Of a DNA stretch of 64,000 bases, positions 9,501-23,405 are shown in pieces (position 1 is the first letter of the stretch; every line of letters begins with the position of its first letter). Below the pieces are notes generated by a model. The model had not been told where the DNA came from. It ran no database searches and worked only from the letters and a program-made list of their open reading frames with translations. The stretch covers positions 62,001 to 126,000 of the forward strand of contig NZ_BDJB01000008.1 in the NCBI RefSeq assembly GCF_002117915.1. Reading direction: 5' to 3'. Made by a program: the position numbers and the translations under genes. The stretch comes from Sphingomonas sp. TZW2008. Its GTDB lineage: Bacteria > Pseudomonadota > Alphaproteobacteria > Sphingomonadales > Sphingomonadaceae.

Positions 9501-10730
9501 ATGAACGCCCCCCTCACCCGCATCGACTGGAGCGCTGCCGGCGCAGCGGAGCTAGCCGACGCCGTCGCCCTGCGCCGCGCGATCCACGCCGAGCCCGAGA
9601 TCGGCAACGACTGCCCGAAGACGTCGGCGAAACTGAAGGCGGCGCTCGCGGGGTTGCCGCTCGAAATCCACGACAGCACCTCAACGACGGGCTTCGTCGC
9701 AATCCTGCGCGGCGGACGCGCCGGAGCATCGGGCAGCAACATGCGCACGGTGCTGCTGCGCGGTGACATGGATGCGCTGCCGATGACCGAGGAAACCGGG
9801 CTCGATTTCGCGTCCACCATCCCCGGCGCGATGCACGCCTGCGGGCATGACGCGCATTCGGCGATGCTCGCCGGCGCCGCCCGTGCACTGTGCGCACGTA
9901 AAGACCAGCTACCTGGTACGGTCGTCTTCATGTTCCAGCCGGGGGAGGAGGGCCATCACGGCGCACGGCACATGATCGAGGACGGCTTGCTCGACATCGC
10001 CCGTCCCGAAGCGGCCTTCGCGTTGCACATCTCGCCCAACGCGCCCGCTGGTGTCTTCGTTGGCCGCGAAGGACCGCTGCTCGCCTCCACCGACACGCTA
10101 CACGCGACGATCCGCGGCAAGGGCGGCCACGCCGCGATGCCGCATGACGCGATCGATCCCGTGCCGGTCGCGTGCGAGATCGTCGGCTCATTGCAGAGCT
10201 ACGTCGCACGCCGTGTTCCGGTCGCCGATCCTGCCGTGCTCACGATTACCCAGATCCACGCCGGGAGCAGCCACAACATCATCCCCGACGATGTGACCTT
10301 GATGGGCACCCTTCGCACCTTGTCTGAACATACGCGGGAAAGTGCGCGGGCAGCCTTTGGCGAGATCGCGCGCGGCATCGCTGCCGCTCACGGCTGTACG
10401 GCGGACGTGTCGATCGACGCGGGCTACCCCGTCACCTTCTGCGATCCGCGCGCCACCGCCATGATGCGCGACGTGGCGAGCACGCTCTCGGGCGAGCGCG
10501 GCTGGTCGCAGATGCCGGCCCCGATGATGGGCGGCGAGGATTTCTCTTACGTCCTTCGCGACATCCCTGGGGCGATGGCATTCGTCGGTATGGCGGCCGC
10601 TGGCTCCGATCCGCGGACCAACCCGCCGTTGCACAATACGCGCATGACGATCGACGAAGACGTCATGGCGACGGGCATCGCCATGCACTGCACGCTCGCT
10701 GAGCGTTTCCTCGAACGCGGCTTCGACTAG
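9501..10730 (+). CDS. M20-family amidohydrolase (hippurate hydrolase / N-acyl-amino-acid deacylase type)
   Basis: 409 residues, the normal size. The family hydrolyses N-acyl or indole-acetyl amino acid amides with a di-metal centre. Visible metal-site motifs are RGDMDALPMTEETG, MHACGHDAHSAML (conserved Cys-Gly-His-Asp), FMFQPGEEGHHGARHMIEDG with the catalytic glutamate pair, and GGEDFSYVL near the C-terminus. The dimerisation domain (about residues 190-310) contains GKGGHAAMPHDAIDPV. The ATG follows AAGGATAGCGC. It stands alone and converges with glmS. The exact substrate is unknown; peptidoglycan or N-acetyl-diaminopimelate deacylation are alternatives. Confidence 0.92.
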   Translation: MNAPLTRIDWSAAGAAELADAVALRRAIHAEPEIGNDCPKTSAKLKAALAGLPLEIHDSTSTTGFVAILRGGRAGASGSNMRTVLLRGDMDALPMTEETGLDFASTIPGAMHACGHDAHSAMLAGAARALCARKDQLPGTVVFMFQPGEEGHHGARHMIEDGLLDIARPEAAFALHISPNAPAGVFVGREGPLLASTDTLHATIRGKGGHAAMPHDAIDPVPVACEIVGSLQSYVARRVPVADPAVLTITQIHAGSSHNIIPDDVTLMGTLRTLSEHTRESARAAFGEIARGIAAAHGCTADVSIDAGYPVTFCDPRATAMMRDVASTLSGERGWSQMPAPMMGGEDFSYVLRDIPGAMAFVGMAAAGSDPRTNPPLHNTRMTIDEDVMATGIAMHCTLAERFLERGFD

Positions 10731-10732
10731 AA

Positions 10733-10765
10733 ACCGGCGCCCCCCTTTTCGGGGAGACGCTCGGT
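10733..10765. terminator. Hairpin between convergent M20 gene and glmS
   Basis: ACCG, GCG and CCCC pair with GGGG, CGC and CGGT around a TTTTC-containing loop, with small bulges. It lies exactly in the 36-base gap between two convergent genes, so it may stop transcripts from both sides. There is no clean T-run on either side. Confidence 0.42.
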
Positions 10766-10766
10766 G

Positions 10767-12584
10767 TCACTCGACGGTGACCGACTTCGCCAGATTGCGC
10801 GGCTGATCGACGTCGGTACCTTTCGCCACGGCGACGTGATAGGCGAGAAGCTGCACCGGTACGGCATAGACCAGCGGCGCGATCAGTGGGTGCACCTTGG
10901 GCATCTCGATCGTGGCGATGGTGTTCTCGCCCGCCTGCGCGATACCCTCGGCGTCGGAGATCAGCACCACTTGCGCGCCGCGCGCCTGCGCTTCCTGCAT
11001 GTTGCTCACCGTCTTGTCGAACAGCGGCCCCGACGGCGCGATCACGATAAGCGGCACCTGATCGTCGATCAGCGCGATCGGGCCGTGCTTCATCTCACCC
11101 GACGCGTAACCTTCGGCGTGGATGTAGCTAATTTCCTTGAGTTTCAGCGCGCCTTCCAGCGCCAGCGGAAACTCGGGGCCACGGCCAAGGTAGAGCACGT
11201 CGCGCGCCGCTGCGATCTTGGGCGCCATCTGCTCGATGTCCTGATCGTGCGACAGCGCGAGGCTCATCGCTTCCGGCACCTGCTGAAGATGCTCGACGAC
11301 GTCGGCCTCGTTGGCGAGCCGGCCCTTGGCGCGCGCCAGATTGGTCGCCAGCGCCGCCATCACCGCCAACTGGCAGGTGAAGGCCTTGGTCGATGCAACG
11401 CCGATCTCAGGCCCGGCGTGCGTCGGCAGCAGCAGGTCAACCTCGCGCGCCATCGAACTGGTCGGCACGTTGATGATCCCGCCCGTGGTAACGCCGCCCG
11501 CCTTCATATGGCGGAGCGCAGCCAGCGTATCGGCGGTCTCGCCCGACTGCGAGATCACCAGCCCCAGGGTATTGGGCAGCAGCACCGGATCGCGGTAGCG
11601 ATACTCGCTCGCGACATCGACCTCGACAGGGATGCGCGCGAGCTGCTCGATCCAGTACTTCCCGATCATCCCGACGTAACTGGCGGTCCCGCAGGCGACG
11701 ATGACCACGCGCTCGACGGTGGAAAGGTCGAACTCCATGTCGGGCAGCGCGACCTTCGCCTCAAGCGGCCGAAGGTACGAGCGCAGCGTCTGCGCGACGA
11801 CGACGGGCTGCTCGTAGATCTCCTTCTGCATGAAGTGGCGATGATTGCCCTTGTCGATCATCTGCCCCGAGGCGCCGGAGTTGACGATCGGCCGCTCGAC
11901 ACGCTGATTGTCGCGATCGTAAATCTCGACGGCATCGCGCGTGATGGCGACCCAATCGCCTTCCTCAAGATACGCGATCCGCTGCGTCAACGGCGCGAGC
12001 GCGAGCGCGTCCGACCCGAGGAAGTTCTCGCCCTCGCCAAATCCCACGGTCAGCGGCGCACCGAGCCGCGCGCCGAGCAGCAGATCGGGATGCGTACGAA
12101 CCATCACGCCGAGCGCGAATGCGCCGTGGAGGCGCGGCAGCACAGCGGCGAGAGCAGCGCGCGGTTCGGCCCCGCCTTCCACCTCGCGCGCGATCAGGTG
12201 CGCCACCACTTCGGTATCGGTCTGGCTGCGAAACTCGCGGCCCTCGGCGATCAGCTCGTCGCGCAGCGGCTTGAAGTTCTCGATGATGCCGTTGTGCACG
12301 ATCACGACGTCGCCAACGATATGCGGATGCGCGTTGTCGACCGTTGGCGCGCCGTGCGTCGCCCAGCGCGTATGCGCGATCCCGCTGTCGCCCGGCAGCG
12401 GATCCTCGGCGAGCCGCTGCGCCAAGTTCTTCAACTTGCCCGGCGCGCGGCGCCGATCGAACGCGCCATCGTTGATGGTACAGATCCCGGCGGAATCATA
12501 GCCGCGATATTCCAGCCGCTTGAGTCCGTCGAGCAGCCGATCGGCAACCGGCCCCTGCCCCAGTACGCCAACGATCCCACACAT
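10767..12584 (-). CDS. glmS: Glutamine--fructose-6-phosphate aminotransferase (isomerizing)
   Basis: 605 residues. GlmS makes glucosamine-6-phosphate from fructose-6-phosphate and glutamine, the first step to UDP-GlcNAc for peptidoglycan and lipopolysaccharide. The N-terminus is MCGIVGVLGQGPV, with Cys2 the glutamine-hydrolysing nucleophile after Met removal. The glutaminase domain contains HTRWATHG and HNGIIENF, followed by two SIS sugar-phosphate domains (ISQSGETADTLAALRH and LGRGPEFPLALEGALKLKEISYIHAEGY), and the C-terminus is AKSVTVE. Its ATG directly abuts the glmU stop with no gap, so glmU-glmS is one operon. I saw no glmS ribozyme, as expected outside Firmicutes. Confidence 0.99.
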   Translation of the reverse strand: MCGIVGVLGQGPVADRLLDGLKRLEYRGYDSAGICTINDGAFDRRRAPGKLKNLAQRLAEDPLPGDSGIAHTRWATHGAPTVDNAHPHIVGDVVIVHNGIIENFKPLRDELIAEGREFRSQTDTEVVAHLIAREVEGGAEPRAALAAVLPRLHGAFALGVMVRTHPDLLLGARLGAPLTVGFGEGENFLGSDALALAPLTQRIAYLEEGDWVAITRDAVEIYDRDNQRVERPIVNSGASGQMIDKGNHRHFMQKEIYEQPVVVAQTLRSYLRPLEAKVALPDMEFDLSTVERVVIVACGTASYVGMIGKYWIEQLARIPVEVDVASEYRYRDPVLLPNTLGLVISQSGETADTLAALRHMKAGGVTTGGIINVPTSSMAREVDLLLPTHAGPEIGVASTKAFTCQLAVMAALATNLARAKGRLANEADVVEHLQQVPEAMSLALSHDQDIEQMAPKIAAARDVLYLGRGPEFPLALEGALKLKEISYIHAEGYASGEMKHGPIALIDDQVPLIVIAPSGPLFDKTVSNMQEAQARGAQVVLISDAEGIAQAGENTIATIEMPKVHPLIAPLVYAVPVQLLAYHVAVAKGTDVDQPRNLAKSVTVE

Positions 12585-13937
12585 TTAGCGAGCTTCCTTT
12601 CGCGTGCGCATCGCTTCGCGAAAGCGCGATGCCCAATTCTTCTTCGTCGTCTGCGGCGGCCGGACGAGCGCCAGTGCATCCGGCTCGACATCGCCGGTGA
12701 TCGTCGATCCGGCGGCGACGATCGCGCCGTCGCCGATCGTCACGGGCGCGACCAGCGCGGAGTTCGAGCCGATGAAGGCGCCCGCCCCGATGACCGTCCG
12801 GTACTTGAGGAATCCGTCGTAATTGCAGGTGATCGTGCCAGCACCGATGTTCGCCCCGGCGCCGATCTCAGCATCGCCGAGATACGTCAGGTGATTGGCC
12901 TTCGCGCCCGCGCCCAGCACCGATTTCTTCATTTCGACGAAGTTGCCGACGCGTGCGCCACGCTCCATCACTGCACCGGGCCGCAGCCGCGCGAACGGGC
13001 CGACCGAAGCGCCTGCGCCGACACGCGCGCCTTCCAGATGGCTGAACGCATGGATCGTCGCGCCGTCGTCCACGGCGACGCCCGGTCCGAAGACGACATT
13101 CGGCTCGATCACGACGTCGCGGCCGATCGTGGTGTCGTGGCTGAACCAGACGGTGTCCGGTGCGATCAGGCTAACGCCGTCAGCCATCGCGGCGGTGCGT
13201 CGGCGCTTCTGCCACTCGCCCTCGACCGCCGCGAGTTCACCACGGCTGTTAACTCCAGCTACCTCGTCCGCCGCCGTCTCAATCACCGCCGACGCGTTTC
13301 CGTCCGCGCCCGCGAGCATGACGATATCGGGAAGGTAATATTCACCCGCGGCATTGGCGTTGCCGATCCGCGCGAGCAGCGCGAACAGCTGCTCGCCGCG
13401 CACCGCCATCAGGCCGGAGTTGCACAGCGTTTCCGCGCGCTCCTCGTCAGTCGCGTCCTTGAACTCGACCATGCGGTCGATCCGCCCGTCACCCTCCGCG
13501 ATCACGCGGCCATAGGCCCCGGCTTCGGCAGGGCGGAAGCCGAGCACCACCGCCGCCGGCGCGTCCGCCGCGTGCAACCGGTCGATCATCCGCCGCATCG
13601 TCGCCGCCGTCACCAACGGTACGTCGCCGTAGAGAATCAGCACATCGCCGATGAACCCCTCGAGCGCCGCCTCCGCCTGTCGCACCGCATGGCCGGTGCC
13701 GAGCTGCTCGGCTTGGTGCGCGACATGTACGCCGAGCGCCGCGACGGCGCGCTCCACCTGCTCTCGGCCGGCGCCGACCACCACCACGGTCCGCTCCGGC
13801 TCGAGTGCAGCGACGCTGTCGAGCAGATGCAGCAGCATCGGCCGGCCGGCGAGCGGATGCAGCACCTTGTGCAGGTCGGATTTCATGCGCGTGCCCTTGC
13901 CCGCGGCAAGGACGATGGCAGCAAGCGGGCGGTTCAT
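12585..13937 (-). CDS. glmU: Bifunctional N-acetylglucosamine-1-phosphate uridyltransferase / glucosamine-1-phosphate acetyltransferase
   Basis: 450 residues. The N-terminal Rossmann-like uridylyltransferase carries the G-x-G-T-R-M motif (AAGKGTRMKS) and ILYGDVPLV. The C-terminal left-handed beta-helix acetyltransferase carries repeated hexapeptides (IGRDVVIEPNVVFGPG, GAGTITCNYDGFLKY). GlmU makes UDP-GlcNAc from glucosamine-1-phosphate, acetyl-CoA and UTP. The ATG at 13937 gives MNRPLAAIVLAAGKGTRM; the open frame continues upstream to 14000 but that would overlap the divergent phosphatase start. It is the first gene of the glmU-glmS operon. Confidence 0.98.
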   Translation of the reverse strand: MNRPLAAIVLAAGKGTRMKSDLHKVLHPLAGRPMLLHLLDSVAALEPERTVVVVGAGREQVERAVAALGVHVAHQAEQLGTGHAVRQAEAALEGFIGDVLILYGDVPLVTAATMRRMIDRLHAADAPAAVVLGFRPAEAGAYGRVIAEGDGRIDRMVEFKDATDEERAETLCNSGLMAVRGEQLFALLARIGNANAAGEYYLPDIVMLAGADGNASAVIETAADEVAGVNSRGELAAVEGEWQKRRRTAAMADGVSLIAPDTVWFSHDTTIGRDVVIEPNVVFGPGVAVDDGATIHAFSHLEGARVGAGASVGPFARLRPGAVMERGARVGNFVEMKKSVLGAGAKANHLTYLGDAEIGAGANIGAGTITCNYDGFLKYRTVIGAGAFIGSNSALVAPVTIGDGAIVAAGSTITGDVEPDALALVRPPQTTKKNWASRFREAMRTRKEAR

Positions 13938-13999
13938 CCGCGCGCCTGTGCCACCAGATGCTTGCCATTTCCATAGCTTGTCGGCACCGCTTCCGCGCA

Positions 14000-14671
14000 A
14001 TGGACCGCATACCCTTTGACATCGTCGGCTTCGACCTCGACGGCACGCTTCTCGACACCAGCGGCGATCTTGCTGCCGCGGTCAATCACGCGCTGGCGCA
14101 GGACGGCCGCCCGCCGCTATCAGTCGCCGCGATCAAGCCGATGATCGGTGGCGGGGCGCGGCACATGCTGGCGCAAGGGCTGGCAGCGACGGGGGGCGGC
14201 GACGACGCGCTGCTCGATCGGTTGCACCGCATCCTGCTCGATCATTACCAGGCGAACATCTGCGTGCTCACCGCGCCCTATCCCGGCGCAGTCGCCGCGC
14301 TTGACGCTATCGCGGCGCGCGGCGCGAAGGTAGCAGTCGTGACCAACAAGCTGGAAGGCTTCGCGCTGGAGGTCCTGCGCGGCGTCGGTCTCATCGATCG
14401 CCTCGCGTGCGTCATCGGCGGCGACACCATGGGTCCGGGGAACGCCAAGCCATCGCCTATCCCTATTAAAGCGATGATCGAGCGGTCGGGCGGTGGGCAA
14501 GCGGTGTTCATCGGCGATTCGATCTACGACATATCGGCGGCGCATGCCGCCGGCGTTCCCGCCATCGCCTGCCGCTTCGGCTTCCTGATGCAGCCCGTCG
14601 AGGAGCTCGGTGCGGAGGCGATCATCGACCACTTCGACGATCTGGTGCCGACGCTCGAGCGATTGGCATGA
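14000..14671 (+). CDS. gph: Phosphoglycolate phosphatase, HAD superfamily
   Basis: 223 residues. HAD motif I is FDLDGTLLDT near the N-terminus, motif II is VVTNK, motif III is the lysine in GNAKPSPIPIK, and motif IV is FIGDSIYDISAAHAAG. An alpha-helical cap follows motif I, as in Gph. The family dephosphorylates 2-phosphoglycolate, formed for example during repair of 3'-phosphoglycolate DNA ends. The ATG at 14000 is 62 bases from the divergent glmU start. The next gene starts at its stop codon (ATGA), so the two are co-translated. A related HAD activity on another small phosphoester cannot be ruled out. Confidence 0.88.
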   Translation: MDRIPFDIVGFDLDGTLLDTSGDLAAAVNHALAQDGRPPLSVAAIKPMIGGGARHMLAQGLAATGGGDDALLDRLHRILLDHYQANICVLTAPYPGAVAALDAIAARGAKVAVVTNKLEGFALEVLRGVGLIDRLACVIGGDTMGPGNAKPSPIPIKAMIERSGGGQAVFIGDSIYDISAAHAAGVPAIACRFGFLMQPVEELGAEAIIDHFDDLVPTLERLA

Positions 14672-15024
14672 GGGCGATGCATCGCGGAGGTTGGCAGCTG
14701 CTGCTGCTCGGCGCGACGCTTTTTGCCGTGACGATGGCGGTCCTCCCCCATCCACCGCACGTGCCGATCGACGGCGACAAATATCAACACATGCTGGCGT
14801 TCGGCACGCTGACGATCCTGGCCGTCATGGCCTATCCCGCCACCCCGCTGCTGCGGATCGGCGAGCGCCTGTCGTTCCTTGGCGCGATGATCGAAGTCGT
14901 CCAGTCGATACCGGCGCTTCACCGCGATTGCGACATCATGGACTGGGTCGCCGATACCGCGATCATCGCCGGTGTCCTGGTGGTCGTCGCGCTCAGCCGT
15001 CGGCGGCGCCGCGTCGCCACTTGA
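14668..15024 (+). CDS. VanZ-like small membrane protein
   Basis: 118 residues and about four hydrophobic segments (LLLLGATLFAVTMAVLPH, YQHMLAFGTLTILAVMAY, RLSFLGAMIEVVQSI, DTAIIAGVLVVVAL). The DKYQHMLAFGTLTIL and EVVQSIPALHRDCDIMDWVAD motifs match the VanZ-like family: a conserved His in helix two, and an acidic Asp-Trp motif before the last helix. Biochemical function is unknown. The start overlaps the phosphatase stop. Its 3' end overlaps the convergent nucleotidyltransferase gene by 32 bases, which is why its C-terminus is arginine-rich. Confidence 0.75.
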   Translation: MRAMHRGGWQLLLLGATLFAVTMAVLPHPPHVPIDGDKYQHMLAFGTLTILAVMAYPATPLLRIGERLSFLGAMIEVVQSIPALHRDCDIMDWVADTAIIAGVLVVVALSRRRRRVAT

Positions 15025-16018
15025 TCCACAGATGCCGTGCGAGCAGCGCCAGCGGCATGCGCATCCAGTGCGACCGGACGTAGAACGCCAGCCGCGTCGC
15101 CGGGCGCGTCCCCCTGCCCCAGCCGTCGCGGGCGAGCAGGCGGCGGATGAACAGCCGGTCGGTGGCTGTCGCACGTCGCCATGCCGCGGGCACCGGCGTA
15201 CGGAACAAGGCGTGGCTTAATCGCAGCGCGCGCGCGACGACGGCCTCCGCATCATGTTCCGCCGCGCGCGCCGCCAGCTTCAGCCAGAACGTCTCGTCGC
15301 CGTCGCGGAACTCGCGCAGCAGCCGGTCGATGTCCCACAGGTTGCGCAGGCCACCGCTGAGGTCTCCATCGGCAAGGAGATGGATCGCCGCGTGGATCAC
15401 CATATCCTCGGCCGAGAGCATGGCGAGACCGTTACCGAGCGGTACGGCCGCGGCGATCAGCTTATCGGCGTCCGGTGACAGCCGCGCGGTTGGCGGCAAA
15501 ATGGTATGATGCACGTCGATCATCCGGTCGCGCTCGGGATGGATCATCGGGGGCAATTCGTGCATCCAGCGTCGGTAATAGGCGTCGTCGTACGGATCGG
15601 GCTTGACCCACATCCATCCGCCGGTGAGCAACGCCTGCTCCGCGGCGTCCAGCGCTGGCCGCGGCACCAGAATGTCGAGATCGCCGATCGATCTCCCCTG
15701 CCCCGCGTCGAGACCAGCAGCGGCAAACGCCGTTCCCTTCAGCAGGATCAGCGGCGCGACGACACCCGCGAGCGCACGGCGCGCCATCTCCGCCTCCCAC
15801 AGCGCCTGTCGCCTGCCTTCGAGCGCGGTAGCGCGCGCGCCGTCGAGAACCGACAGGACGCTTGGCGGCAAATCCATACCCGCCAGTCGTATCGCGAGCG
15901 TGCCGATCAGTTGCTCGGCGCGCGCTGCTGCAAGGATCTCGGTCCATGCACCCGGCCCGACCGTCCCGGCTTGGGCGGGATCGACGAGGAGCGCGACGAG
16001 CCTCGCCGCCGCGATCAC
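14993..16018 (-). CDS. Nucleotidyltransferase-fold protein (NTP_transf_5 family), fourth gene of the HPr-rel-A cassette
   Basis: 341 residues from the GTG at 16018, which overlaps the kinase stop as GTGA; a GTG one codon upstream is the alternative. The core ILLKGTAFAAAGLDAGQG-RSIGDLDILV contains the K-G and D-x-D pattern of the polymerase-beta nucleotidyltransferase superfamily, with a later conserved acidic/His stretch (RMIDVHHTIL). This fits PF14907. Members are found in natural-product clusters, including some lasso-peptide clusters, and in HPr-rel-A loci. The transferred group and acceptor are unknown. Position as last gene of a tightly overlapping operon with an HprK-like kinase and a PqqD-like protein argues for a peptide or protein modification role. 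No lasso cyclase or transglutaminase-like protease is nearby. Confidence 0.82.
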   Translation of the reverse strand: MIAAARLVALLVDPAQAGTVGPGAWTEILAAARAEQLIGTLAIRLAGMDLPPSVLSVLDGARATALEGRRQALWEAEMARRALAGVVAPLILLKGTAFAAAGLDAGQGRSIGDLDILVPRPALDAAEQALLTGGWMWVKPDPYDDAYYRRWMHELPPMIHPERDRMIDVHHTILPPTARLSPDADKLIAAAVPLGNGLAMLSAEDMVIHAAIHLLADGDLSGGLRNLWDIDRLLREFRDGDETFWLKLAARAAEHDAEAVVARALRLSHALFRTPVPAAWRRATATDRLFIRRLLARDGWGRGTRPATRLAFYVRSHWMRMPLALLARHLWIKWRRGAADG

Positions 16019-16863
16019 CACAAATCCTCGATCATCGCCGCCGCCGATGCCGTATCGGGATAATCGATCGCCGCGCGCGTCACATCGCGCACCAAGCGCG
16101 TCAGCGCGTCGAACCCCCGTTCGCCGAGCCCCACGTAGTTGGTCGACGCCTGCGTCAGCCGAACGAACGCCTCGCCCGCTCCCACCGCGCGCGTTTCCGC
16201 CGCGCGGCCGAATTGTGGGAACAGCAGCAGCGTCGGCATCACTGCCTCGGTCATGCCCGCGAGAGCTTCCGGCTGCGGAATCAGATGTCGGATGTCACCC
16301 TTCGGCGTACCCGTCAGCAGCGGCCCGAACGTCGCATCGGGCAACGCCGCGCGCGCCACACCGATCGCCGCATTCTTCAAACTTACGGGTCGGGGAAAGG
16401 GATGCACAAGCCCAGTCGCGGGATCGATCAGCACGAACTCGTCGGCAAGCAGCCGCCAGCCGCGCAACTGCAGCAGCACGGCGAGCGTCGACTTTCCCGC
16501 GCCCGACTCGCCCGTCATGATCACGGCCCGCCCGTCGCGCGCGACCGCTGCGGCATGGAGCAGCAGGAACCGCCGCTGGCCCAGCGCCATTTGCAGGTTC
16601 ATCCCCATTTCAGCGGCAAGCAGACCATGTCGCAACGGCAGCGGCGCGGCGTCGGGTATCGCATAGTCGCCAGCGATCGTTACCGACGGTCGGACCCAGC
16701 GTCGCCACGGTCTTGAAGCTTCGAGCCTCACGGTGAAATCGGGCACACCGTTGAGGCGTGGGTAGTCGTGATAGAGCGCTTGCAACGCCGCAATCGGCGC
16801 GTGCCACTCGGACCCCACGCGAAAGCCGATCGGGCCGACGCGAACCGCGAAACGATGTCTCAT
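16015..16863 (-). CDS. HprK-related kinase A
   Basis: 282 residues. The product resembles the C-terminal kinase domain of HPr serine kinase/phosphorylase. It has a P-loop, MTGESGAGKSTLAVLLQL, near residue 117, followed by the downstream acidic site LLADEFVLID. The usual HprK N-terminal domain is replaced by a short unrelated region, and no HPr or PTS gene is visible nearby. NCBI/TIGRFAM naming calls such proteins HprK-related kinase A of the HPr-rel-A system. The ATG at 16863 overlaps the stop of the PqqD-like gene (ATGA). By analogy with HprK-like kinases that phosphorylate lasso precursor peptides, the substrate may be a small peptide or protein, but that is inference. Confidence 0.87.
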   Translation of the reverse strand: MRHRFAVRVGPIGFRVGSEWHAPIAALQALYHDYPRLNGVPDFTVRLEASRPWRRWVRPSVTIAGDYAIPDAAPLPLRHGLLAAEMGMNLQMALGQRRFLLLHAAAVARDGRAVIMTGESGAGKSTLAVLLQLRGWRLLADEFVLIDPATGLVHPFPRPVSLKNAAIGVARAALPDATFGPLLTGTPKGDIRHLIPQPEALAGMTEAVMPTLLLFPQFGRAAETRAVGAGEAFVRLTQASTNYVGLGERGFDALTRLVRDVTRAAIDYPDTASAAAMIEDLW

Positions 16864-17126
16864 GCCCGCTCGATCAATCCCGCGACGGCGAGCGCGTCGA
16901 GCGTTTCCAGAAGCGCGGCGCGGTCGCCCTCGACGATTTCGAACGTCTCTTCCACCGCCTCCAGCGTCAGCCACCGCCCGCCGAGCGCGTCGAGCAGGTC
17001 GAGCGTCGTCGGCGCGACGAGATGGGTGATCCCCGACGCGCGGTGGAACACCGCCGCCAGGTCGTCGAGCGCGACGATCGCCAATCCGTCCGCTGGCGGC
17101 GCGCGATAGCGCGTCGCGCCGTTCAT
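16860..17126 (-). CDS. PqqD-like protein of the HPr-rel-A system
   Basis: 88 residues. The fold is a short winged-helix PqqD domain: a beta-rich N-terminus (YRAPPADGLAIVALDDLAAVFHRASGITHLV), then LLDALGGRWLTLEAV and the last helix LLETLDALAVAGLIER. PqqD proteins and RiPP recognition elements bind precursor peptides and hand them to modifying enzymes. The gene begins one base after the stop of the Tat-signal protein and ends overlapping the kinase start, so it is translated in series with both. That layout makes the upstream protein a reasonable candidate for its binding partner. Confidence 0.82.
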   Translation of the reverse strand: MNGATRYRAPPADGLAIVALDDLAAVFHRASGITHLVAPTTLDLLDALGGRWLTLEAVEETFEIVEGDRAALLETLDALAVAGLIERA

Positions 17127-17127
17127 C

Positions 17128-17547
17128 CTACTTGCGAGGCATCTGCAGCGAGGCGAAGCAGGTGAACCCCGCCGATCCGCTGCGCAGGCTCTGAACGTAT
17201 TTGAGATAGGCGCGGCTGCGCTCGTAATCGACGCCGGGAAGCGTACCCCCGGTCGCAAGAGCGCGACGGACGTCCTCGCCCTTCAGCGGCCGACCCGGCG
17301 GCGCGAACGCGCCCTGTGTCCCCGCGGGCACCACCTTGCCGTCCTTGTTGATATACCCGCCGGTCCGGCCGGGATCGGGCACCGGGATTTCGCACGTCAG
17401 GATCGATCCATACGCCTGCGCCATCGCCGGGCGGATCGAAACGACCGCGACCGCGCCGACCGCGCCAAGCCGCAGCACGCGCCGGCGCTGCGGCGCGACG
17501 GGATCGTCTTGGCTCTCGGGTTCGCTCATCGGACGCTTATCCACCAT
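17128..17547 (-). CDS. Small Tat-signal protein, first gene of the HPr-rel-A cassette
   Basis: 139 residues. I chose the ATG at 17547 because GGAAGG lies five bases before it; a second ATG at 17529 has no good ribosome site. Residues 20-43 look like a twin-arginine signal peptide: QRRRVLRLGAVGAVAVV then RPAMA, with likely cleavage after Ala43. The mature part of about 96 residues has two cysteines (about Cys52 and Cys130), Gly/Pro-rich stretches (PDPGRTGGYINKDGKVV) and a basic C-terminus (LQMPRK). I do not recognise a domain. Export in folded form and operon linkage to a kinase, a PqqD-like protein and a nucleotidyltransferase suggest it may be their substrate, but this is not shown. Confidence 0.75.
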   Translation of the reverse strand: MVDKRPMSEPESQDDPVAPQRRRVLRLGAVGAVAVVSIRPAMAQAYGSILTCEIPVPDPGRTGGYINKDGKVVPAGTQGAFAPPGRPLKGEDVRRALATGGTLPGVDYERSRAYLKYVQSLRSGSAGFTCFASLQMPRK

Positions 17548-17705
17548 CGCGCCCTTCCATAATCCTAATGCGCGCACAAGAAGTCCCGCGGCGGCGTTCC
17601 GATGCGGGACGTTAACCATCGTCGCGCGCGCGGCTGTCGCTGCCTGCGCGGCCGTGCCATAGCCGCCGCCGGGAACAGGCGGGCCGGGCAAGGAACACGA
17701 GCGAC

Positions 17706-18935
17706 ATGGGCGAGATCATCTCTCCGCGTGGCTGGACGGCGATGAGCATCGTTCTGGCGACGGCGCTCGCCGTGGCGTTGATCGGTGCGGGGCTCGACGC
17801 GGTCGCACTCGTCGTGGTCGGCGGCGCGGCGGCGGTGCTCGCCACGACCGCTGGGCGCCGGCCCGACATCGAGCCGGACGCCCTCGTGCCCGCCCCAAGC
17901 CACGAGCAACCTGCGCCGATCCTCGACGCAGTCGCCGATCCGCTGCTCGTCCTCGCCGGATCGCGCGTCACCGCCGCGAACAGCGCCGCGCTCACCCTGC
18001 TCGGCACGCATATCGTGGGCGAGGACACGCGCACCGTGATCCGCCATCCGGCGGCCACGGCGGCACTTGCCGGCAGCGATGGCGAAGGAGCAGTCGAACT
18101 CGTCGGTTTGGGCACCGCCGACCAGCGCTGGGAGATGCGCGTCGCGCCGCTCGACGCGGGGCGCCGGCTGGTCCATCTCGTCGATCGCAGCGGCAGCCAC
18201 GCCGCGGAGCGGATGCGCGTCGATTTCGTCGCCAACGCGAGTCACGAACTACGCACGCCGCTCGCCTCGATCCTCGGCTACGTGGAGACGCTGTCCGACG
18301 CGGCGGGCGAGGATCCTGCGATCCGCGCGCGCTTCCTCAAGATCGTGTTCGACGAGGCGCGTCGGATGGAGCGATTGGTCGACGATCTGATGAGCCTGTC
18401 GCGGATCGAAGCGGAGAAGTTTCGCGCGCCGTCGGAGGCGGTCGACCTTGGCGCGCTGGTGGACGAGACGCGCGACGCGCTGGCGGACGGACACGACGGG
18501 CGCGGCCGCGACATCATCCTCGAGCATGAACCCGCCCCGATCCCGGTACTCGGCGACCGCGTTCAACTCTCCCAATTGCTTCACAACCTCATCGGCAACG
18601 CGATGAAATACGGGCGCGCGGGCACACCGATCCGCGTCTCGCTGACGCATGGCGGCGACGTCGTCCGCCTCGTCGTCGCCGATCAGGGCGAAGGCATCGC
18701 GCCCGAGCATATTCCGCGGCTGACGGAGCGTTTCTACCGTGTCGATCCCGGTCGTAGCCGCTCGGTCGGCGGCACAGGCCTCGGCCTCGCGATCGTCAAG
18801 CACATCGTCGAGCGGCACCGCGGGCGGTTCGAGATCACCAGCCGCCCGAACGAGGGCACGCACGTCACGGTCACCCTGCGCACGCCCTCTGCGGCGGCGC
18901 GCGCACCCGCCGCCACGGGTGTCATCAACCGGTAA
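17706..18935 (+). CDS. phoR: Phosphate regulon sensor histidine kinase
   Basis: 409 residues. Two N-terminal hydrophobic segments (about residues 12-45) precede a PAS-like region, then the HisKA domain with the phospho-acceptor histidine in VANASHELRTPLAS (about His180), and an HATPase_c domain with the N-box HNLIGNAMKYG, DQGEGIAPEHIPRL and the G-box GGTGLGLAIVKHIVERH. PhoR phosphorylates PhoB when phosphate is scarce and is held inactive by the Pst transporter with PhoU. AAGGA lies before the ATG. It heads the phoR-pstSCAB-phoU-phoB cluster, and its last codons contain the predicted Pho box for pstS. Confidence 0.95.
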   Translation: MGEIISPRGWTAMSIVLATALAVALIGAGLDAVALVVVGGAAAVLATTAGRRPDIEPDALVPAPSHEQPAPILDAVADPLLVLAGSRVTAANSAALTLLGTHIVGEDTRTVIRHPAATAALAGSDGEGAVELVGLGTADQRWEMRVAPLDAGRRLVHLVDRSGSHAAERMRVDFVANASHELRTPLASILGYVETLSDAAGEDPAIRARFLKIVFDEARRMERLVDDLMSLSRIEAEKFRAPSEAVDLGALVDETRDALADGHDGRGRDIILEHEPAPIPVLGDRVQLSQLLHNLIGNAMKYGRAGTPIRVSLTHGGDVVRLVVADQGEGIAPEHIPRLTERFYRVDPGRSRSVGGTGLGLAIVKHIVERHRGRFEITSRPNEGTHVTVTLRTPSAAARAPAATGVINR

Positions 18936-18947
18936 CGCTGGTGTCAC
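18919..18947 (+). promoter_or_regulatory. Predicted Pho box (PhoB binding site) upstream of pstS
   Basis: Three seven-base blocks at exact 11-base spacing: GTGTCAT (18919), CGGTAAC (18930), GTGTCAC (18941), separated by four-base spacers. The classical PhoB site is CTGTCAT direct repeats with 11-base periodicity; the first and third blocks match at six of seven and five to six of seven positions, and the middle one is degenerate. It overlaps the phoR stop codon and ends 37 bases before the pstS start, so the promoter would lie at the end of phoR. Confidence 0.62.
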
Positions 18948-18984
18948 ACAGGCGCAGCGTCGCCTTGGTGCGGCGGATACCGGG

Positions 18985-20034
18985 ATGCCAATGATTCGTG
19001 CCGTCATGCCGATCGTGCTGCTAGCGCTTGTCACGGCGTGCCACGATCAGGCGAGCGGCGGCGCGGGCGCGCGCGCGCAGATCACCGCGGTCGGATCGTC
19101 GACGGTCTATCCGTTCACGACGATCGTCGCCGAACAATATCTCGCCAACAATTCCGACGCCCGGCCGCCGGTGATCGAATCGACCGGTACCGGCGCCGGC
19201 ATGAAGCTGTTCTGCGCGGGCATCGGCGCGGCCCATCCCGATATCGAGAATGCGTCGCGCCGGATGAAGCGCAGCGAGTATGACGCCTGCGCGCGGAACG
19301 GCGCGCGCGAGCTTCTCGAGATCCAGATCGGGATCGACGGCGTCGCCTTCGCCGAGGCGAAGAACGGACCGCGCATGGCGCTGACGCCAGCCGATCTCTA
19401 TCGCGCGCTGGCGGCGACGCCGAGCGGGCGACCGAACACCGCGCGGACGTGGCGTGATGTCAATCTATCGCTGCCGACGATCCCGATCCAGGTCTACGGC
19501 CCGCCGGCGACGAGCGGAACGCGCGACGCGCTTGCCGAACTGATCCTCGCGAAGGGATGCGAGGCAGTCGACCCGCAGGCGAAGGCACTGAAGGCGCGCG
19601 ACGAGGAGGCGTTCAAGGCCCGCTGCCAGCGCGTGCGTGAGGACGGCGCCTATGTCGACGCCGGCGAGAACGACAATCTCATCGTGCAGAAGCTGACCGC
19701 CAATCCCAATGCGATCGGGGTCTTTGGCTATTCCTATCTTGAGGAGAATGCCGGCGCGGTGAACGCCGTGCCGATCGCCGGTATCGCGCCGACGGAGGCA
19801 TCGATCGCCGACGGCAGCTATCCCGGCGCCCGCCCGCTCTACCTCTACGTCAAGAAGGCGCATCTCGATGCCGTACCGGGCCTGCGGCAGTTCATTCGCC
19901 ACTATGCCCGGCTGTGGGGCGCGGACGGGCCTCTGGCGCGCCGTGGCCTGATCGCGGCGCCCGCCTACGTTCAGGCACGCGCCGGGGCGATAGTGCGCAG
20001 CGAAACGCCGCTCGATCCGGCCGAATTGCCATGA
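18985..20034 (+). CDS. pstS: Phosphate ABC transporter, substrate-binding lipoprotein
   Basis: 349 residues from the ATG at 18985; an ATG at 18991 is equally possible. The N-terminus MIRAVMPIVLLALVTAC is a lipoprotein signal with a VTAC lipobox, so the protein is probably anchored in the inner or outer membrane facing the periplasm. The binding-protein fold starts ITAVGSSTVYPFTTIVAEQY and includes the phosphate-binding GSST and ESTGTGAGMKLFC loops and GPPATSGTRDALAEL. It resembles the sphingomonad/alphaproteobacterial PstS branch rather than E. coli PstS. Its stop overlaps the pstC start (ATGA). The Pho box lies just upstream. Confidence 0.93.
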   Translation: MPMIRAVMPIVLLALVTACHDQASGGAGARAQITAVGSSTVYPFTTIVAEQYLANNSDARPPVIESTGTGAGMKLFCAGIGAAHPDIENASRRMKRSEYDACARNGARELLEIQIGIDGVAFAEAKNGPRMALTPADLYRALAATPSGRPNTARTWRDVNLSLPTIPIQVYGPPATSGTRDALAELILAKGCEAVDPQAKALKARDEEAFKARCQRVREDGAYVDAGENDNLIVQKLTANPNAIGVFGYSYLEENAGAVNAVPIAGIAPTEASIADGSYPGARPLYLYVKKAHLDAVPGLRQFIRHYARLWGADGPLARRGLIAAPAYVQARAGAIVRSETPLDPAELP

Positions 20035-21407
20035 GCATCGGCGTCCTCACCCTCGTCGTCGCCGCGCTCGGGCTGATCGCGTGGTTCGTCGCCCGCGCGC
20101 GCGCCGCGGTGTTCCGCAGCGGCTCGGTCGGCCGGTTCAGCGCGTTGCCGGCGCACCATGGCTGGTACGTCGCGCTGTGGACGATCCTGCCGCCGCTCGT
20201 TTTTCTTACGATCTGGTGGTTCGTCGCGCCGGCGCTCGTCACCGATGCGGTGATCGCCACCCCGGCCGCTGCCGCCCTCCCCCCGCCCGGCTTCGTGCGC
20301 GCCGCCATCCTGTCCGAAGCGCGCAACCTGTCGCGCGGCGATGCCTTCGGCGCTTTCCACGATCTGTCGGAGGTGCTTGCACCTGCCTATGCGACGGCGC
20401 AGCGCCGCTACGACTGGATCGCGACCGGGCTCGCCGCACTTCTCGCCTTTGCCGGGTTCGCCTTCGCGATCATCCGCGTCCGACCCGATTTCGCCGCGCG
20501 TACCAAGGTCGAACGGATCGTCATGCTCGCGCTGCTCGCCGCATCGCTGATCGCGATCCTGACCACCGTCGGCATCGTCGCCAGCCTGCTGTTCGAGAGT
20601 GCGCGTTTCTTCGCGATCGTGCCGATCACCGACTTCCTGTTCGGCACGCACTGGTCGCCGCAAGTGATCGACGCGCGCGATCCCGGCGCGAGCCTCGGCG
20701 CCGTGCCGCTGTTCTGGGGGACGTTCTTCATCGGCGCGGTGATCGCGATGATCGTCGCGATTCCGTTCGGGCTGATGAGCGCGATCTATCTTACGCAATA
20801 TGCCAAGGCATCGACGCGGCGATGGATGAAGCCGCTGCTCGAGATCCTCGCCGGCGTGCCGACCGTCGTCTATGGCTATTTCGCTGCGCTCACCGTCGCG
20901 CCCGCCGTGCGCGACTTTGCCGTCGCGATCGGGATCAGCTGGGCGAGCAGCGAGAGCGCGCTCGCCGCCGGGCTCGTCATGGGCGTGATGATTATCCCCT
21001 TCGTCTCGTCGATGGCTGACGATTCGCTCGCTGCCGTGCCAAGCTCGATGCGCGACGGCAGCCTCGCGATGGGCGCGACCCCGTCCGAGACGATCCGACG
21101 GGTGCTCGTCCCTGCGGCGCTGCCCGGCATCGTCGGCGGCGTGCTCCTCGCTGTCAGCCGGGCGATCGGCGAGACGATGATCGTCGTCATGGCCGCGTCG
21201 GGCGTCGCCGCGCTGACGCTCAACCCCTTCGCCAGCACCACAACCGTCACCAAGCAGATCGTCGACCTGCTCACCGGCGAGGCGGAGTTCGACAGCGCCA
21301 AGACGCTCGCCGCCTTCGCCCTCGGGCTGACGCTCTTCGTAGTGACGCTGCTGCTCAACATCGTCGCGCTCGTCGTCGTCAAACGCTATCGTGAAGCCTA
21401 TGACTGA
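20031..21407 (+). CDS. pstC: Phosphate ABC transporter permease PstC
   Basis: 458 residues. This is longer than enterobacterial PstC because of an extra N-terminal region of about 190 residues with several hydrophobic stretches (LTLVVAALGLIAWFVARARA, WYVALWTILPPLVFLTIWWF, GLAALLAFAGFAFAIIRV). The C-terminal permease part has the binding-protein-dependent transport signature around AMGATPSETIRRVLVPAALPGIVGG, which contacts PstB. The long form is typical of sphingomonad and caulobacter operons. The start overlaps the pstS stop and the stop overlaps the pstA start. Confidence 0.94.
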   Translation: MSIGVLTLVVAALGLIAWFVARARAAVFRSGSVGRFSALPAHHGWYVALWTILPPLVFLTIWWFVAPALVTDAVIATPAAAALPPPGFVRAAILSEARNLSRGDAFGAFHDLSEVLAPAYATAQRRYDWIATGLAALLAFAGFAFAIIRVRPDFAARTKVERIVMLALLAASLIAILTTVGIVASLLFESARFFAIVPITDFLFGTHWSPQVIDARDPGASLGAVPLFWGTFFIGAVIAMIVAIPFGLMSAIYLTQYAKASTRRWMKPLLEILAGVPTVVYGYFAALTVAPAVRDFAVAIGISWASSESALAAGLVMGVMIIPFVSSMADDSLAAVPSSMRDGSLAMGATPSETIRRVLVPAALPGIVGGVLLAVSRAIGETMIVVMAASGVAALTLNPFASTTTVTKQIVDLLTGEAEFDSAKTLAAFALGLTLFVVTLLLNIVALVVVKRYREAYD

Positions 21408-22650
21408 GCGCGCGCCGACCGATTGGCGGACCGATGCGATGCGCCGCCGCATCGCACGGCGCTACGCCGCCGAGCGTCGCTTCCGCGCGCTCGGGCTGGG
21501 CGCGATCCTGCTGTCCGCCGGGTTCCTCGCCTTTCTCATCGTCACCATGATCGCGCAGGGCGCCTCGGGTTTCACCGAGACGCGCCTCGCGCTGCCGATC
21601 GATTTCGGGCGCGCGAAGCTCGCCGTCACGCCCGAGCAGCTGCGCGGCGCGCGTGCCGATCTCGCGCTCGCTGGAGCAGGACTGGAAGGCGTCGTCGACA
21701 GCGCAGCGGGTGCGGCCTTCGGGGCGAACGGCGGCGCGGCGCTGCTGTCGGACGGCGCGTGGCTGCGCGTAAGGGACGCGATCAAGGCCGATCCCTCGCT
21801 GCTGCGCCGGACGGCGACGCTCGACGTGCCCGTCGCGAGCGACATCGACATGGCGTACAAGGGCGCCGGCAGCGCGACCGCCGAACAAACCGTCGCCGTC
21901 CTGCGCGGCTCACTGTCGCGCGGCCTTAACATCGGCTTCTTCGACGGGGCGGATTCGACCGATCCGACGCGGGTCGGCATCTGGGGCGCGCTGAAAGGAT
22001 CGCTGCTGACGATGGCGGTCACGCTGATCCTCGCCTTTCCGATCGGCGTCCTTTCCGCGCTCTACCTCGAGGAGTATGCGCCACGGAACCGCTGGACAGA
22101 TCTCATCGAAGTATCGATCAACAATCTCGCCGCGGTGCCCTCGATCATCTTCGGGCTGCTCGGCCTCGCCGTGTTCCTCGGTACGCTCGGCCTGCCCCGC
22201 TCGGCGCCGATCGTCGGCGGGCTCACTCTCGCGCTGATGACGATGCCCGTCATCGTCATCGCCGGGCGCAACGCGATCAAGGCGGTGCCGCCCTCGATCC
22301 GCGACGCCGCGCTCGGCATCGGCGCCAGCCCGGTGCAGGTCGTCTTCCACCACGTTCTGCCGCTCGCGCTGCCGGGCATCCTCACCGGCACGATCATCGG
22401 CATGGCGCGCGCGCTCGGTGAAACCGCGCCGTTGCTGATGATCGGCATGCGCGCCTTCATCGCCGCCCCGCCCACCGGGCTCGGTGATCCCGCGACGGTG
22501 CTGCCCGTTCAGATCTTTCTCTGGTCGGACGAGGTGCAGCGCGGGTTCGTCGAGAAGACGTCCGCCGCGATCATCGTCCTCCTCGTCTTCCTGCTCGCGA
22601 TGAATGGCCTCGCCATCTATCTGCGCAACCGCTTCGAGACCCGCTGGTGA
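21400..22650 (+). CDS. pstA: Phosphate ABC transporter permease PstA
   Basis: 416 residues, also longer than the enterobacterial protein. One N-terminal membrane segment ([23 protein letters not shown]) is followed by a periplasmic insert of about 110 residues and then the five-helix permease domain with IPFG-type loops and the coupling motif [23 protein letters not shown]. It pairs with PstC to form the channel of the phosphate importer. The ATG at 21400 overlaps the pstC stop; an upstream GTG at 21391 is less likely. Its stop overlaps the GTG of pstB. Confidence 0.94.
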
Positions 22651-23405
22651 CGCACAAGATCACGGCCCACAACGTCAACGTTTTCTACGGCGACAAACAG
22701 GCGATCAACGACGTCTCGATCGACGTCGATCAGGAGGACGTCACAGCCTTCATCGGCCCGTCGGGCTGCGGCAAATCCACTTTTCTGCGCACGCTCAACC
22801 GGATGAACGACACCGTCGCCTCCGCGCGCGTCACCGGCGACATCCGCCTCGATGGCGAGGATATCTACGCGCGCGAGATGGACGTGGTGCAGCTGCGCGC
22901 GCGCGTCGGCATGGTGTTCCAGAAGCCCAATCCCTTCCCCAAGTCGATCTATGAGAACGTCGCGTACGGTCCCCGCATCCACGGTCTGGCGAGCGGCAAG
23001 GGCGATCTCGATCGGATCGTCGAACAATCGCTCACCCGTGCAGGTTTATGGGGCGAGGTGAAGGACCGCCTGTCGGACAGCGGCACCGCCCTGTCGGGCG
23101 GCCAGCAGCAGCGGCTGTGCATCGCGCGCGCGATCGCGGTCGATCCCGAAGTGATCCTGATGGACGAGCCGTGCAGCGCGCTCGATCCGATCGCCACCGC
23201 GCGGATCGAGGAGTTGATCCACGATCTGCGCGGGCGTTACGCGATCGTTATCGTCACGCACAACATGCAGCAGGCGGCGCGCGTCAGCCAGAAGACCGCC
23301 TTCTTCCACCTCGGCGAGCTGGTCGAATACGGCGACACCAACGACATCTTCACCAACCCGCGCGAGCGGCGCACCACCGATTACATCACTGGCCGGTACG
23401 GCTGA
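22647..23405 (+). CDS. pstB: Phosphate ABC transporter ATP-binding protein
   Basis: 252 residues with a GTG start overlapping the pstA stop. ABC ATPase motifs are all present: Walker [10 protein letters not shown], the Q-loop [17 protein letters not shown], the signature [17 protein letters not shown], Walker [14 protein letters not shown] and the H-loop VTHNMQQA. It powers phosphate import through PstC-PstA, and with PhoU it signals phosphate sufficiency to PhoR. The C-terminus [12 protein letters not shown] is characteristic of PstB. Confidence 0.98.

Follow-up and report, generated by a model that had tools for sequence, protein, structure and literature searches.

The four-gene locus

The DNA examined here, hereafter the window, is a stretch of 64,000 nucleotides from the 3.5-Mb genome of Sphingomonas sp. 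TZW2008 (contig NZ_BDJB01000008.1, positions 62,001 to 126,000), and its minus strand carries, from 17547 to 14993, a cassette of four genes for a protein with a signal for twin-arginine translocation (Tat), a PqqD-like protein, an HprK-related kinase, and a nucleotidyltransferase. On balance, we read it as a cassette akin to those for ribosomally synthesized and post-translationally modified peptides (RiPPs), one that would phosphorylate, and then further decorate, a serine of the Tat-exported protein. The spacings read from the sequence are +1, −4, and −4: one base separates the stop codon of the Tat-protein gene from the ATG of the PqqD-like gene, and the following two junctions are overlaps. 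An earlier note on this DNA had described four tightly linked minus-strand genes, and both the spacings and the family matches agree with it. The genes and their features are as follows.

17128..17547, minus strand: Tat-signal protein, 139 amino acids, proposed substrate (ATG 17547, stop 17128; upstream partner in 77 of 81 loci)
17419..17547, minus strand: predicted signal peptide of the Tat protein, residues 1-43 (arginines 22-24, A-x-A before Q44; from the sequence)
17392..17406, minus strand: N-terminal S-x-x-x-C box, S48-C52, second candidate site (S48 and C52 in 21 of 21)
17146..17163, minus strand: C-terminal box T129-C130-F131-A132-S133-L134, main candidate modification site (C130 and S133 in 21 of 21)
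16860..17126, minus strand: PqqD-like protein, 88 amino acids, proposed precursor-binding element (ATG 17126, stop 16860)
16015..16863, minus strand: HprK-related kinase A, 282 amino acids (ATG 16863, stop 16015; ATGA overlap of 4 with the PqqD-like gene)
16486..16512, minus strand: kinase P-loop GESGAGKST (G123 and K124 in 81 of 81)
14993..16018, minus strand: nucleotidyltransferase NTP_transf_5, 341 amino acids (GTG 16018, stop 14993; GTGA overlap of 4 with the kinase gene)
15674..15694, minus strand: nucleotidyltransferase motif R109-SIG-D113-L-D115 (R109, D113, and D115 in 77 of 77)

The kinase passed the equivalog cut-off of the HPr-rel-A kinase model (TIGR04352, 236.8 bits, E = 2.5e-70, cut-off 200), bearing out the identity given in the earlier note, and the PqqD-like protein matched TIGR04353 over the whole model (34.3 bits, E = 3.4e-8, cut-off 35); among 72 relatives of the latter protein that were found, 10 were tested, and all 10 lay above that cut-off. 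The nucleotidyltransferase matched PF14907 (176.3 bits, E = 1.1e-51). In the comparison of 81 loci described below, kinase residues H103, G123, K124, D141, E142, K163, K188, G189, and N242 were kept in 81/81 and transferase residues K94, G95, R109, D113, D115, D168, and H170 in 77/77, and judged by these residues both enzymes look active. Kinase residues 88-144, which include the P-loop and D141, aligned with the HPr kinase structure 1jb1 (23.5 bits, E = 0.00035). Canonical HPr regulation was set aside, since the kinase scored 24.5 bits against 240 on the HPr kinase/phosphatase model. For the transferase, no sequence relative was found in the PDB at E up to 1, and a Foldseek search with its structure model (predicted local distance difference test, pLDDT, 90.3) gave no match at E 0.001 or better; the best structural match of that model was MenT1 (Z = 12.7, root mean square deviation 3.0, 175 residues), followed by TM1012, MenT3, and ANT(2''), a resemblance that would reflect a common fold and assigns no function. 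A second, weak TIGR04352 match lies elsewhere in the genome (C5:389494, E = 1.8e-8).

Constancy of the Tat partner and of its boxes

Of the 196 genomes examined in the order, 88 had a TIGR04352 match above cut-off, as did 61 of the 398 in a phylum sample; in the latter, among the matches listed, those in the window's class all belonged to its own order. With two slightly lower matches (G093 and G006), the order count of kinase genomes used below is 90. The window and 80 flanked loci picked by their kinase, from Sphingomonadales and other Pseudomonadota, were then compared by iterative profile searches that started from the window proteins, and this revealed the kinase in 81/81 loci, the transferase in 77/81, the PqqD-like protein in 72/81, and the Tat protein in 67/81 (70 copies, with two each in L035, L103, and L106). 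Ten further loci, designated type B, encode on the same strand upstream a twin-arginine protein with a different mature domain, mostly S-P-G-x-W-like. In total, a same-strand upstream twin-arginine signal protein was present in 77/81 loci, and the absence from most related loci that the earlier note had set as a check on its proposal was thus not found. The four loci with no adjacent precursor were L034, L084, L097, and L109; the genomes of L034 and L109 have a Tat gene elsewhere, and the contig of L097 ends 1.4 kb upstream of its kinase.

Both the Tat and the PqqD-like genes were found by profile in 66 loci, and in 62 of these they lay no more than 120 bases apart on one strand; the gaps were widest in L044 and L057, the Tat gene of L044 being nonetheless upstream and on the same strand. 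Iterated profiles may drift, but the position of the Tat gene, a reverse test, and the co-occurrence described below argue against drift here. For the reverse test, a collection of 84,980 species was scanned with the pattern [SAG]GFTC[FY]AS[LI], derived from the Tat alignment, which gave 405 matches, 388 of them encoding relatives, and the best 80 were examined: the four genes were complete in 79 of these, while the remaining locus was cut by a contig end. The linkage of the cassette is beyond chance. By their Tat protein, the closest named relatives, among the best 80 of the 388, were Sphingomonas. One record titled Arthrobacter sp. TPD3018 (L170, QDFQ01000002.1) carries a Sphingomonas-type cassette; its Tat protein is 69% identical, and the record is probably misnamed or mixed.

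Across the order, the Tat profile matched 60/196 genomes, and all 60 fell within the 90 kinase genomes; this profile derives from one subtype, so the 30 unmatched kinase genomes are no evidence of absence. Six order genomes have kept the Tat gene though it lies away from the kinase. Four of them (G035, G080, G097, and G119) have an intact PqqD-kinase-transferase trio with no Tat gene within the 7 kb read and a Tat gene elsewhere, G167 (locus L109) shows the same arrangement, and in G053 the Tat and PqqD-like genes stand together, apart from the kinase and the transferase. In another family, seven genomes (G052, G055, G029, G070, G087, G099, and G073) have, besides the linked copy, a lone Tat paralogue, around which the 5 to 7 kb read contained no cassette gene. 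All 13 of the 13 unlinked Tat copies retain the C-terminal box, and such copies would look like substrates acting in trans.

The signal of the window copy reads QRRRVLRLGA...PAMAQA and lacks the usual F/L-K after the arginines, so the label "Tat" rests partly on its kin, many of which have RRxFLK or RRxLLK. Residues R22 and A43 were invariant in an alignment of 21 Tat proteins, and a twin-arginine signal with a hydrophobic stretch and A-x-A was recognized in the family by eye and by pattern; the Pfam model TAT_signal matched 1 of 8 kin, at 13.1 bits versus a cut-off of 22.7. Outside the window's family, the signal often approximates RRxLLKxGxxxxPxxhTL, and this region is a possible recognition site. 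No NCBIfam or Pfam family matched the window Tat protein at E up to 1, and no model of either collection exceeded its cut-off for eight diverse relatives. The structure model of the protein was poor (pLDDT 64.8, tail below 60), and its three matches in the PDB all had E above 8. Long Asp-rich or Gly/Asn-rich insertions lie between the two boxes in L035, L051, L060, L104, L105, and L107, as if the middle of these proteins were free to vary.

In most partners, a box of the form [ST]-C-hydrophobic-x-S lies near the C terminus. Searched with an expression devised after the sequences were inspected, [ST]-C-x-x-S was present in the last 45 residues of 67/70 Tat copies and in the last 60 of 68/70, compared with 0 and 1, respectively, of 434 conserved neighbour open reading frames, some of which are chance antisense frames; the background rate of C-x-x-S in these frames was 9% of cysteines. 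Almost every listed match (65 of 66) ended no more than 19 residues from the C terminus, and among the 68 boxes the residue at +1 was always W, F, Y, L, V, or I and that at +4 was L, I, F, or V in 65. The members of the 21-row alignment were selected by kinase and not by the box pattern; S48, C52, C130, and S133 were present in 21/21 of them, with T at position 129 in 20 and S in 1. A Ser no more than 5 residues before a Cys was seen in 65/70 copies against a background of 27%, by a rough script that picked another Cys in at least five rows. The conservation of C52 and C130 and of S48 and S133 points to a possible disulphide and to two candidate serines. For type B proteins, inspection by eye placed C-x-x-S early in the mature part in 7/10 (L072, L074, L075, L083, L090, L091, and L093), the others being L086, L094, and L095. 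Neither this box nor the tie to exopolysaccharide genes described below had figured in the earlier note.

In a tree of the 81 kinases, for which precursor-type labels were fixed beforehand and only a midpoint root was used, a 100/96 branch split the 10 type B loci and L092 from the other 70; L085, which has no box, and L034, L084, and L097, which have no adjacent precursor, grouped with type A. Directly downstream of the kinase, in the usual position of the transferase, L082, L087, L088, L098, and L101 carry a gene for a TPR-repeat protein, the transferase lying further downstream in L082, L098, and L101 and not found in L087 and L088. A gene for a trypsin-like (HtrA/MarP-like) protease lies near the cassette in L037, L072, L074, L075, L083, L086, L091, L093, and L094, and 8 of these 9 loci have type B precursors (one cluster representative was scanned).

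Kinship with peptide-modifying systems and exopolysaccharide genes

HprK-like kinases modify peptides in known systems, some of them with a nucleotidyltransferase partner, as the earlier note had stated and as two reviews confirm: such kinases place a phosphate on the Ser at the C terminus of lasso precursors, and the one or two hexoses, possibly added by a host enzyme, that this phospho-Ser can carry depend on PsmN, a protein annotated as a nucleotidyltransferase (PMC9266682, PMC8498205). The tailoring of paeninodin and pseudomycoidin (PadeK, ThcoK, SyanK, and PsmK; PsmN) resembles the cassette in pairing an HprK-like kinase that acts on a C-terminal Ser with a nucleotidyltransferase-like protein that decorates the phospho-Ser. 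Paeninodin-type kinases have the conserved residues His-Lys-Asp-Asp, to which H103, K124, D141, and E142 would correspond; the second Asp is Glu in 81/81 loci, E142 being taken as its counterpart from the alignment with 1jb1. The cassette differs in that its substrate would be an exported protein of ~120 to 290 amino acids, with the Ser a few residues inside the C terminus. A lasso peptide cluster was rejected, since the whole genome held no macrolactam cyclase above cut-off and no B2-type match, which extends genome-wide the earlier note's remark that no lasso cyclase lies nearby. The best NF033535 match reached 199.3 bits against a cut-off of 525 and is the amidotransferase of the exosortase A (XrtA) system, on contig C2, and PF13471, which we take to be the family of the lasso B2 leader peptidase, had no match in the genome at E 0.001.

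A 2026 study describes linear polyphosphorylated peptides (LPP) made by lppA-K-B-S-D-N of Paenibacillus alginolyticus, a member of Bacillota, in which LppK phosphorylates one Ser while Thr or Tyr substitutes stay unmodified (PMC13381572). If the PqqD-type protein, with its putative binding role, is counted as the recognition element, the trio of separate recognition element, HprK-like kinase, and NTP transferase is common to LPP clusters and the cassette; further likenesses are one to three precursor genes with a variable mature part and a place among polysaccharide genes. As the LPP clusters of Bacillota have the same trio and no lasso cyclase of their own, the earlier statement that the cassette does not fit a known RiPP class is out of date. 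The differences drawn from the same source are as follows. LPP precursors carry YxxPxVLxHQxIxFETxxS N-terminally, whereas even the short form [YW]xxPx[LVIFA] occurred in 0/69 profile-called cassette precursors. They are cut by an archaeal-type signal peptidase, whereas a search of the whole genome with TIGR02228, the model for that enzyme, found nothing at E 0.001 (8/14 control genomes were positive). They are linked to an MsbA-like pump, whereas no such transporter was found among the ten flanking genes scanned (9501-23405), the remaining genome not having been searched for one. LPP clusters are also predominantly from Bacillota, and cassette precursors have a twin-arginine signal. LPP membership was rejected because the precursor motif and the archaeal-type signal peptidase are both missing.

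With the HPr-rel-A system of NCBIfam (TIGR04352 and TIGR04353), the cassette shares a kinase that passes and a PqqD-type gene directly upstream, but the models of that system cover no Tat protein and name no substrate, and the window PqqD-like protein is 0.7 bit short. The SynChlorMet cassette (ScmC and ScmD) likewise pairs an HprK-like with a PqqD-like protein, but both matches lay far under the cut-offs (window kinase, E = 1.3e-6, 28 of 125 bits; PqqD-like protein in 1 of 10 kin, E = 0.0026, 17.9 of 100 bits). Names thus exist in NCBIfam for the kinase and PqqD models, while the Tat partner has no family name there or in Pfam, and no paper on the HPr-rel-A cassette or its Tat partner was found among open-licence PubMed Central papers. 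By analogy, the cassette would work like LPP and pseudomycoidin tailoring while being a member of neither.

The window genome also encodes XrtA (TIGR03109, 320.3 bits, cut-off 208, at G000:C2:37565-38341), with which genes for a glycosyltransferase (TIGR03087), FemAB, deacetylase, chain-length, decarboxylase, and amidotransferase proteins stand on contig C2, all above cut-off; the cassette and this cluster are on different contigs. In other loci, genes of the XrtA system lie near the cassette itself, according to a scan of one representative per cluster: the glycosyltransferases TIGR03088 and TIGR03087 in 14 loci each, an asparagine-synthase-like gene, downstream, in 18, deacetylase TIGR03006 and FemAB TIGR03019 in 8 each, and PrsK and PrsT types in 5 each. 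Among the 90 kinase genomes of the order, XrtA (E below 1e-50) was present in 84, the amidotransferase TIGR03108 in 84, and either in 88, compared with XrtA or TIGR03108 in 55 of the 106 genomes without the kinase, counts that are uncorrected for shared ancestry and in which XrtA was scored as absent from 12 genomes whose exosortase matches were all weaker. Neither gene was found in two kinase genomes, G101 and G113, whose assemblies are fragmented. XrtA (E up to 1e-20) was present in 31/61 kinase genomes of the phylum sample versus 40/337 others, so XrtA itself is not required; where a TIGR03088-type gene neighbours the cassette (14 loci), 10 loci came from XrtA-negative genomes. In Sphingomonadales, the cassette tracks the XrtA exopolysaccharide system. 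TIGR03108 was considered as a fifth cassette gene and rejected, since it tracks XrtA and not the kinase (132/139 TIGR03108 genomes with XrtA, 55/139 without the kinase). According to PMC7468200, the XrtA amidotransferase and FemAB families resemble makers of an amino-acid-modified linking sugar for secreted proteins, a likeness that fits a protein-polysaccharide theme and has no direct bearing on the cassette.

The flanks of the cassette in the window include the following genes.

17706..18935, plus strand: PhoR-type histidine kinase, divergent, outside the cassette (TIGR02966, 299.5 bits, cut-off 334.2)
13985..14671, plus strand: HAD phosphatase of the phosphoglycolate phosphatase type, convergent, outside the cassette (TIGR01449, 161.1 bits, cut-off 180)
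14668..15024, plus strand: membrane-protein-like gene, 118 amino acids, convergent (weak VanZ-like match, 12.2 bits of 20)

The small membrane-protein-like gene shares 32 bases with the 3' end of the convergent nucleotidyltransferase gene. Upstream and divergent, the PhoR-type gene is accompanied by PstS-like, PstC, PstA, and PstB genes; downstream, beyond the small membrane-protein gene and the HAD phosphatase, both convergent, lie GlmU and GlmS. The cassette thus sits between GlmS-GlmU-HAD and PhoR-Pst genes (9501-23405 of the window), relatives of which recur nearby in ~30 to 38 of the 81 loci, with a HAD phosphatase relative on the opposite strand in 38/81. In a comparison aimed at an empty site, a PhoR relative was found in 16 kinase-free genomes, but the 1.5 kb read next to it never contained a HAD match, and none of these genomes offered a clean empty site.

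A proposed modification route and its alternatives

In the route that we propose, the PqqD-like recognition element would bind the Tat precursor in the cytoplasm and hand it to the enzymes; PqqD-type proteins bind peptides in known systems. The HprK-related kinase would then phosphorylate a Ser, most likely that of the C-terminal [ST]-C-x-x-S or, alternatively, that of the N-terminal S-x3-C, and the nucleotidyltransferase may add a group to the phosphate, a hexose or a nucleotide by analogy with PsmN. The product would leave by the Tat route, with its signal cleaved, and would work at the cell surface with XrtA-type exopolysaccharide. The Tat route carries folded, already modified proteins, which would suit a protein modified in the cytoplasm. 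The steps differ in how firmly they can be held. The Tat protein is probably a dedicated substrate, and a lasting phosphate on the box Ser falls just short of an even call. A role in XrtA-type exopolysaccharide is tentative, and a sugar or nucleotide placed on the phosphate is more doubtful still. Concerning the earlier proposal that the cassette modifies the Tat protein, the constant partner (77/81 loci; 60/60 genomes) and the kept catalytic residues support it in part, whereas the modification, its site, and the binding by the PqqD-like protein are what we infer.

Several points weigh against this route. The proposal rests on sequence comparison and analogy, and in the LPP study deletion of lppN, the transferase gene, gave no visible change (PMC13381572). 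The window PqqD-like protein falls 0.7 bit below the cut-off of its model, and the Tat-protein model, with its tail below 60 pLDDT, is too poor to inform on binding. The expression for the box followed inspection of the sequences, and the letters at −1 and +3 belong to the pattern. The C-terminal box is missing from L085 and L092, which are 2 of the 70 profile-called partners, and from the 10 type B partners. Because the pattern used to retrieve the 80 named loci contains the box, their 80/80 box count is no evidence, and by the same circularity the invariant box columns of a 56-row alignment are uninformative. Two serines are fixed in close relatives, so that either may be the site of modification. 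Finally, 30 of the 61 phylum-sample kinase genomes had no XrtA match, and the lack of correction for shared ancestry bears on all the XrtA co-occurrence counts.

An unlikely alternative is that the two enzymes supply XrtA-type exopolysaccharide with a small molecule that they synthesize or activate, either a phosphorylated sugar or a nucleotide-linked unit, the Tat protein being an unmodified periplasmic helper of that polymer. The XrtA-type glycosyltransferase, deacetylase, FemAB, and amidotransferase genes that recur as neighbours, together with the XrtA cluster of the window genome, speak for such a role, as does the occurrence of the nucleotidyltransferase fold in small-molecule enzymes such as ANT(2''). 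It accounts poorly for the box, which the lone copies of the Tat protein also carry and which calls for a protein-level reason, and for the match between kinase clade and precursor type; moreover, the PqqD-type proteins of known systems bind peptides, LppB among them (PMC13381572).

The Tat protein could also be the client of a folding or quality-control system in which the PqqD-like protein is an export chaperone and the two enzymes regulate chaperone or precursor reversibly, leaving no lasting mark. Dedicated cytoplasmic chaperones are common among Tat substrates, and the NCBI name of a PqqD member is peptide chaperone. However, two catalytic enzymes (kinase in 81/81 loci, which were chosen by their kinase, and transferase in 77/81) exceed the needs of a chaperone, and with known HprK-like kinases the phosphate stays on the peptide (PMC9266682, PMC8498205, PMC13381572); we regard this explanation as improbable. 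Least credible, to the point of being very hard to sustain, is inheritance of the genes as a conserved block with no common reaction. The HAD, GlmU/GlmS-like, and Pst-like genes that recur on either side in many Sphingomonadales loci are as expected under vertical inheritance, but the partner is retained when unlinked, the neighbours of the cassette differ in other families, and the Tat protein varies outside a nearly fixed box.

The boldest extension of the proposed modification of the Tat protein would be a new class of protein modification, in which the Ser of C-x-x-S is phosphorylated and glycosylated or nucleotidylated in the cytoplasm, the Tat-exported product is an anchor or primer of XrtA-type exopolysaccharide, and the unlinked paralogues are substrates in trans; as a whole, we consider this extension unlikely. 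If the proposal is true, a widespread cassette named in NCBIfam, with its kinase in 61 of the 398 phylum-sample genomes, would gain a substrate and a candidate site, RiPP-type recognition and HprK-type peptide phosphorylation would be extended to whole Tat-exported proteins, and the exosortase exopolysaccharide system would gain a new handle.

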